64,000 bases of DNA from Candidatus Woesearchaeota archaeon (GTDB lineage Archaea > Nanobdellota > Nanobdellia > Woesearchaeales > JABGXB01), in the NCBI GenBank assembly GCA_018675975.1, contig JABGXB010000003.1, positions 128,181 through 192,180 on the forward strand, in the 5' to 3' direction. The notes under the pieces are model-generated. The model worked only from the letters and a program-made list of their open reading frames with translations, did no database searches and was not told the origin of the DNA. Position numbers and translations under genes: made by a program. Positions 30,004-31,750 of this stretch are shown in pieces (position 1 is the first letter of the stretch; each line of letters starts with the position of its first letter).

Positions 30004-31557
30004 ATGGATATGAATTTTTTAGAAGAATTAGGCCTAACAAAATCAGAAATTAAAGTTTATTTATCCTTATTAGAAATAGGAGAATCAAGTACAGGAAAAA
30101 TAGTTGATAAAGCAAAAGTATCTTCATCAAAAATATATGAAATAATGGATAAATTAATTCAAAAAGGATTAGTATCATATATAATTAAATCAGGTGTAAA
30201 ATATTTTGAATCAGCACAACCAAATAGATTATTAGATTATATTAGTGAAAAAGAAAAAAAATTAGAAATTCAAAAAGAAAAAATAAAAAAAATATTACCT
30301 GAATTAGAACTTAAAAAAAAATTATCCAATTATAAATCACAAGCAACTATATATAAAGGATATAAAGGATTAGAAACTGCATTTTTTGAAAGTTTAGATT
30401 TACTAAAAGCAAATGAAGAATTATTAGTAATAGGAATTCCAAATAGAAGTGAAATATCAAACAGGTTTTTTGTGAAATTTGCAAAAGAAAGGCAAAGAAG
30501 AAAAATTAAATCACGTGCTACAATTAATGAAATTGCTAGAGGCGAATTACAAACATTAAAAAAAAATTTATATTCACTAAAACTAAAATACATACAACAA
30601 ACTATGCCTGCAGCAATTAATATTTTTAAAGATAGAATAATTATATTCCCAGAAGAAAAAGATGAAATTATATTATTTGTTATTGATAATAAAGAAATTG
30701 CAGAAAGTTTTAGAGTTCAATTTGAACTTTTATGGAATCAAGACGTATCCACATATCACGGACACAATGCAGTTGAATCAATTTATGATTCAATAATTGA
30801 GAATACAAATAAAAAAAATGAGATATTAATTTATGCTTCAAAACCAAATGATAAAAGAAGTAGTGAATATAATATTGAATGGCAAAAAAAAATTGCTAAA
30901 AAAGCAAAAAATGTAAAATTACTTTATTATGGACAAAATGAAATTAATAATGAGCGTCTAAAAAAAGTTAATCAAACTGGCTGTATATCTAAAATTTATC
31001 CAACTAGTCAAAACCTACCCATCTCCACTATTATAACAAAAAATGAAGTAATCAATACAATATGGTCAAATAAACCAACAGCAATTAAAATTGAAAATAA
31101 AATTGTTGCAAACTCATTAAAAGAAAATTTCAACATATTATGGAATCAAAATACATTCGTAGTTAAAGGAATAAAAGCCATTGAAAATATTTTTATGGAT
31201 ATGTTAAATTATAAACAAATAGATTTTATTGGTGCACGAGGGTATTTAATCGATAAAAGTCCTAAATTTATTTCCAAATGGGAAAAATTAGCAATTGAAA
31301 AAGGATTTAAAATGAGAAATATTGTGGATAAAGAAATAAAGGGACATAAAATTACACGTTTTCCTTTTGCAAAAACTAAATATACCATACCAAAAGAATA
31401 TGCAAAACTATCAGTAATATGGATTTATGGAAATAAAATTGCAATTAGTAATTGGACAAAAAAAGAACCTTTCGCAATAATAATTAATAATAAAGAAATT
31501 TATGATATGTACAAAAGTCAATTTGAAATAATCTGGAATATGAAAAAATTTAAATAA
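30004..31557 (+). CDS. TrmB-family protein with three tandem sensor-like domains
   Basis: 517 aa. The N-terminal HTH (1-75, EELGLTKSEIKVYLSLLEIG) and coiled-coil linker match the TrmB-like regulator at 25710. Three sensor-like units follow: about 110-240 ending FELLWNQD, about 250-380 ending FNILWNQN, and about 385-517 ending FEIIWNMK. Each starts with a related helix (YKGLETAFFESLDLL; HNAVESIYDSIIENT; IKAIENIFMDMLNYK). The 25710 protein has one. TrmB regulators normally carry a single effector domain, so three suggests multiple ligand sites or internal dimerisation. The ligand is unknown. A CCCC-AAA-GGGG motif is about 50 nt upstream. Confidence 0.8.
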   Translation: MDMNFLEELGLTKSEIKVYLSLLEIGESSTGKIVDKAKVSSSKIYEIMDKLIQKGLVSYIIKSGVKYFESAQPNRLLDYISEKEKKLEIQKEKIKKILPELELKKKLSNYKSQATIYKGYKGLETAFFESLDLLKANEELLVIGIPNRSEISNRFFVKFAKERQRRKIKSRATINEIARGELQTLKKNLYSLKLKYIQQTMPAAINIFKDRIIIFPEEKDEIILFVIDNKEIAESFRVQFELLWNQDVSTYHGHNAVESIYDSIIENTNKKNEILIYASKPNDKRSSEYNIEWQKKIAKKAKNVKLLYYGQNEINNERLKKVNQTGCISKIYPTSQNLPISTIITKNEVINTIWSNKPTAIKIENKIVANSLKENFNILWNQNTFVVKGIKAIENIFMDMLNYKQIDFIGARGYLIDKSPKFISKWEKLAIEKGFKMRNIVDKEIKGHKITRFPFAKTKYTIPKEYAKLSVIWIYGNKIAISNWTKKEPFAIIINNKEIYDMYKSQFEIIWNMKKFK

Positions 31558-31639: not shown

Positions 31640-31750
31640 GGGTCTGTAGCTTAGTCCGGTGGAGCGCTAGTCTTATATGTCTACGTTCTGTACACAAAAT
31701 GATGCGACTAAGATCACTAGTGGTCGAGGGTTCAAATCCCTCCAGACCCA
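31640..31750 (+). tRNA. tRNA-Ile (anticodon UAU) with 37-nt bulge-helix-bulge intron
   Basis: The acceptor GGGTCTG/CAGACCC and T-arm GAGGG TTCAAAT CCCTC are perfect; the anticodon stem CTAGT/ACTAG brackets the intron at 31678-31714, just after position 37. The junction forms a canonical hBHBh: CTTA pairs with TAAG, flanked by three-base bulges TAT and ATC cut after their second base, and GTC/GAC extends the inner helix. After removal the loop is CTTATAC, giving anticodon UAU and a 74-nt tRNA. The body resembles archaeal tRNA-Ile. A TATA box ATTTATAAAC lies about 36 nt upstream. CCA is not encoded. Confidence 0.93.

Follow-up and report, generated by a model that had tools for sequence, protein, structure and literature searches.

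A BHB-interrupted tRNA-Ile(UAU) as the probable AUA decoder of a woesearchaeal genome and its DPANN relatives

The tRNA-Ile(UAU) gene and its intron

The window, a 64,000-nucleotide stretch of woesearchaeal DNA, carries at 31640–31750 a gene that ARAGORN recognizes in its intron mode alone, as tRNA-Ile(tat) interrupted by a 37-nt intron; the Rfam tRNA model scores the same segment at 60.6 bits (Table 1). The gene is solitary, with a TrmB-type regulator upstream (30004–31557) and small ORFs without assignment, as well as a RimK-like ATP-grasp protein, downstream. Once spliced, it yields an intact cloverleaf with UAU at positions 34–36; a previous sequence-only reading had derived this anticodon from the spliced loop CTTATAC, and both direct reading and the intron mode of ARAGORN agree with it. 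With nine tRNAs of the same genome compared, the exons are nearest to tRNA-Ile(GAU) (57/74), followed by elongator tRNA-Met (53), the rest being lower.

Table 1 Positions of the tRNA-Ile(UAU) gene elements within the window
Feature	Position	Strand	Evidence or detail
5' exon of tRNA-Ile(UAU), positions 1–37	31640..31677	+	ARAGORN intron mode; Rfam RF00005, 60.6 bits; direct reading
Anticodon TAT (UAU), positions 34–36	31674..31676	+	Spliced loop CTTATAC, closed by CTAGT/ACTAG
37-nt intron at position 37/38, TGTCTACGTTCTGTACACAAAATGATGCGACTAAGAT	31678..31714	+	BHB geometry; conservation among relatives
BHB central helix, 5' strand (C32 U33 U34 A35)	31672..31675	+	Pairs with 31709–31712
BHB central helix, 3' strand TAAG, partner of part of the anticodon	31709..31712	+	Pair conservation in relatives
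Intron +2 to +6: 5' strand of the BHB inner helix and intron strand of H1	31679..31683	+	Covariation in 91 phylum precursors
3' exon, positions 38–73, CCA not encoded	31715..31750	+	Direct reading; Rfam; ARAGORN

The intron had been placed at 31678–31714, within a bulge-helix-bulge (BHB), and direct reading, ARAGORN and folding show this assignment to be right to the base, the BHB being predicted as the energy minimum when anticodon arm and intron are folded together. Its outer helix (31667–31671/31716–31720, CTAGT/ACTAG), central 4-bp helix (CTTA/TAAG) and inner helix (31679–31681/31706–31708, GTC/GAC) are accompanied by two 3-nt bulges (31676–31678 and 31713–31715), within which the cuts would fall. 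In 114 distinct relatives the central-helix pairs are kept in 113 cases at C32, 109 at U33, 111 at U34 and 97 at A35, so that the BHB is not a product of chance; the last two of these pairs join the intron to the anticodon itself. Judged by eye, the intron is too short to hold a box C/D or H/ACA guide and has no such boxes, and this idea was rejected.

AUA decoding in the genome and among its relatives

The usual archaeal reader of AUA is a CAU tRNA modified by TiaS. In the genome that harbors the window (1.03 Mb in three contigs, 23% GC, completeness 100), PF08489 gives no match to tiaS, with four out of four archaeal control genomes positive, and only two of the 30 tRNAs called by ARAGORN carry CAU, namely the initiator (C3:277694) and elongator tRNA-Met (C1:521069); a third CAU tRNA, and hence tRNA-Ile2(CAU), is absent from the genome. 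Both genes whose presence would have spoken against the earlier proposal of an encoded UAU in place of a TiaS-modified CAU are thus missing, and the accompanying suggestion that AUA is common and loads this tRNA heavily is borne out by 37.3 AUA per 1000 codons, corresponding to 35% of Ile codons and 2.4 per AUG. As for the remaining tRNA complement, Ala-GGC, Pro-GGG, Leu-GAG and Arg-GCG tRNAs were not found in the genome, in which GCT, CCT and CTT are common; the Ala, Pro, Leu and Arg four-codon boxes seem to be served by one U34 tRNA each. In addition, a degenerate tRNA-like stretch (L029, G000:C1:182192–182259, + strand) reaches 51 bits and receives no ARAGORN call.

The UAU-for-CAU arrangement is not peculiar to one strain but belongs to the whole lineage and is DPANN-wide. 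No tiaS was detected in any of 60 genomes of the order, 279 genomes of the phylum or 50 genomes bearing the UAU tRNA, archaeal controls being positive in each case. Intron-bearing tRNA-Ile(UAU) genes occur in at least 45 of the 60 order genomes, each of which represents a different family: a strict pattern accounts for 28 after one false match was dropped, a covariance model run on the remaining 32 adds 15, and weaker matches, once fetched, add two. Many of the added genes escaped the pattern because their D loop or T loop is interrupted by further introns. Neither method found a UAU tRNA in the other 15 order relatives, eight of which are at least 90% complete, so that the gene there would be further interrupted, beyond the reach of the search, or replaced. 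Across the phylum, 105 of 279 genomes carry the intron-bearing gene by the strict pattern, a few of these being false matches; an exact-pattern scan of named genomes has, among the matches listed, Woesearchaeota, Pacearchaeota, Nanoarchaeota, Micrarchaeota, Diapherotrites, Aenigmatarchaeota, Parvarchaeota and others. In the phylum of Thermoprotei archaeon AUK163 (G343), only 2 of 300 genomes have such a gene. Some of the top covariance-model matches in pattern-negative genomes are other tRNAs (Ile-GAU, Met, Arg, Thr), and these were left uncounted.

Taken on gene content, tRNA-Ile(UAU) would very probably be the organism's only dedicated AUA-decoding tRNA, in an arrangement shared by its lineage. 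As established biology leads one to expect, the splicing endonuclease would cut the BHB and RtcB would join the exons, after which IleRS would charge the spliced tRNA and AUA would be read by Watson-Crick pairing, a reading for which agmatidine is not needed. The task, AUA as Ile, would be that of the archaeal TiaS/agmatidine system, of which enzyme and tRNA are both missing here.

An encoded, intron-bearing tRNA-Ile(UAU) is already known in archaea. The tRNA has been reported in Nanoarchaeum equitans and Korarchaeum cryptofilum (PMC6000648, PMC8450103), where UAU likewise replaces tRNA-Ile2(CAU), in Korarchaeum again with an interrupted gene; those cases were reported as species-specific gains, whereas here the trait extends over whole DPANN lineages without tiaS. 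The homologous pre-tRNA-Ile(UAU) of ARMAN-2, likewise a DPANN precursor with a BHB intron, is cleaved at its intron in vitro (PMC12397907); for the gene of the window, splicing is predicted.

Many tRNA-Ile(UAU) genes of the order have additional D-loop and/or T-loop introns (L260–L262, L264, L265, L268, L269, L272, L284, L289 and L295; L085, L086, L090, L094–L098, L101, L111 and L112). L272, L284 and L289 have three introns each, matching the layout of tRNA-Ile(UAU) in Cyanidioschyzon merolae, which has introns in the D, anticodon and T arms (PMC9602550); C. merolae is a eukaryote, however, and the gene in the window has the anticodon intron only.

A probable alternative exon-intron hairpin

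When aligned, the introns mostly start with N-G-R-C, followed by a loose CGYUY...CA motif, and in the 91 precursors of the phylum intron positions +2 to +5 are complementary to exon positions 29–32, which predicts a hairpin referred to as H1. Its pairs are found in 90 of 91 precursors at 32:+2, in 84 at 31:+3, in all 91 at 30:+4 (72 expected from shuffles) and in 63 at 29:+5 (57 expected, p 0.0005); these shuffle statistics ignore kinship, except for a check with one sequence per family, in which 30:+4 is kept in 54 of 54 (48 expected) and 29:+5 in 40 of 54 (p 0.005). Overall, 90% of the cells pair in the H1 register, compared to 37–50% in slid controls. Pairs are moreover exchanged between families, with the C30–G+4 reversal in five of them (f38, f63, f73, f79, f81) and A29–U+5 in four (f1, that of the genome itself, f37, f86, f87). 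By comparison, 31 introns at position 37/38 of other tRNAs have no excess of H1 pairing (30:+4 in 12 of 31, 12.4 expected).

H1 and the outer BHB helix exclude each other, as both use the same exon strand, and H1 leaves a six-base loop made up of U33–A37 and intron +1. In 59 of the 91 precursors, versus none of 31 controls, H1 is part of the minimum-energy fold predicted for the nascent fragment; when the 3' strand is added, the count falls from 59 to 29. Within the BHB inner helix, covariation is detected at +3:−8 and is weak at +4:−9 (38/87), so that H1 accounts better than the BHB for the conservation of intron +4. In the gene of the window, H1 would involve exon 31668–31672, with pairs 32:+2, 30:+4, 29:+5 and 28:+6 and a U-U mismatch at 31:+3; it is weak and not the predicted energy minimum, and because of this imperfection the case for H1 rests on the family.

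Outside the phylum, the first three H1 pairs or more are present in 28 of 52 introns and missing in 24, mainly of Micrarchaeota, many of whose introns are without H1 pairing, unlike those of the window's phylum. The hairpin is common to Diapherotrites, Aenigmatarchaeota and two Thermoproteota-side genomes, the latter with all four pairs. In these two (G633 and G343, loci L309 and L310), which belong to another phylum, full H1 pairing is combined with a DPANN-like loop motif, CTCCGG[TC]ACAA, and this likeness to DPANN introns suggests common origin or transfer.

Judged by comparative sequence evidence, H1 is probably a selected structure. As a tRNA-specific hairpin it also seems new: no description of H1 or of lineage-wide tiaS absence, and no treatment of DPANN together with agmatidine, was found in open papers, most subscription journals lying outside this coverage. 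A covarying hairpin specific to one tRNA offers a concrete handle on intron retention, intronless tRNA-Ile(UAU) being limited to one case in the 279 phylum genomes (G218, L288), whose anticodon arm reads CTGCT-CTTATAA-GGCAG.

Separation of AUA from AUG and possible roles of the hairpin

AUA is discriminated from AUG by means of lysidine in bacteria, agmatidine in archaea and inosine or pseudouridines in eukaryotes. DPANN make up a large share of archaeal diversity, and how they separate the two codons is a testable question, the archaeal enzyme being missing and, in the order, the Pus1 family as well. The latter, TruA/Pus1, makes the Ψ-A-Ψ anticodon of yeast; profile PF01416 finds it in none of 40 genomes, that of the window included, and AUA is among the commoner codons of this genome despite the missing TiaS and Pus1 family. 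Elp3, on the other hand, is present at full length in the genome and above the profile cut-off in 36 of the 40, and could plausibly supply a U34 of the cm5U type. Regular-expression searches of ORFs for modification enzymes missed even Elp3, so that their negatives carry no weight.

According to ARAGORN, the Lys, Glu, Gln and Arg U34 tRNAs of the genome lack CNN partners; U34 must therefore generally read G-ending codons, and tRNA-Ile(UAU) calls for a restraint of its own. Less certainly than the splicing and charging steps, three things could limit misreading of AUG: U34 of the spliced tRNA could receive an Elp3-type modification, elongator tRNA-Met(CAU) could compete, and the frequency of AUG, less than half that of AUA, could contribute.

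What H1 contributes may be no more than an order of folding: forming before the 3' exon is made, it would shield the 5' anticodon strand until displaced by the BHB, with no part in modification. The competition of H1 and the outer BHB helix for one exon strand and the drop of H1 upon addition of the 3' strand fit such an intermediate, which is a real possibility although short of probable; it leaves the restriction of H1 to tRNA-Ile(UAU) unexplained.

A tentative addition to the main reading, and rather an unlikely one, is that H1 presents the anticodon in its six-base loop to an anticodon-modifying enzyme, before the precursor refolds into the BHB and is spliced. It would then be an archaeal counterpart, by analogy and with similar reserve, of the intron of yeast tRNA-Ile(UAU), which directs pseudouridine formation at U34 and U36, promoting Ψ34, and keeps Elongator and its product off (PMC11408192, PMC4090602). 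The two systems are alike in tRNA identity, in the position of the intron at 37/38 and in its pairing with the anticodon (PMC4090602, PMC11408192); unlike the yeast intron, the one described here can additionally pair with the exon stem, and the order is without the TruA/Pus1 family, whose yeast member Pus1 makes the pseudouridines at 34 and 36. Apart from the yeast precedent, a modification role is favored by the register and covariation of H1, its absence from other 37/38 introns, its predominance in nascent folds, its spread beyond the phylum and the near-complete retention of the intron. Against it stand the lack of a known enzyme, the yeast enzyme's family being absent in 40 of 40 genomes, the 24 of 52 introns outside the phylum that have no H1, the imperfect hairpin of the window's gene, the existence of an intronless gene and the kinship that all shuffles but one check disregard. 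Carried further, and speculatively, tRNA-Ile(UAU) could be an ancient AUA module of DPANN and a few Thermoproteota-side lineages, whose precursor switches between H1, for a putative anticodon modification against AUG misreading, and the BHB, for splicing; if true, this switch would explain the rare loss of the intron and be a TruA-independent parallel to the intron-dependent system of yeast.

U34 might instead stay unmodified, fidelity coming from the ribosome, competition by tRNA-Met and the shape of the tRNA, a scheme put forward for certain bacteria that have tRNA-Ile(UAU). The several four-codon boxes apparently read by a single U34 tRNA would fit a largely unmodified U34, but a U34 reading four codons would read AUG too, and with full-length Elp3 present this alternative is doubtful. 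A rival reading, in which this copy is accessory or dead and AUA is read by a TiaS-modified CAU tRNA, as usual in archaea, is almost certainly wrong, since tiaS and a third CAU tRNA are both missing, the cloverleaf is intact and the gene is conserved in relatives, and is refuted as far as an assembly of this completeness and contig number allows.

Pattern matches at L099, L103, L110, L252 and L311, as well as those in Actinomyces, were set aside as not belonging to the tRNA-Ile(UAU) class considered here. The Actinomyces tRNA, called Ile(tat) in 14 genomes (L114, L122, L124, L130, L185, L186, L187, L197, L202, L205, L212, L217, L223, L226), is intronless with the anticodon arm GCGAG-CTTATAC-CTCGT, and a long variable arm is present, GTGC-CTGATAA-GCAC; in all 14 the loop of this arm resembles the anticodon loop of tRNA-Ile(GAU), and in two its stem is compensated to GTGT/ACAC.
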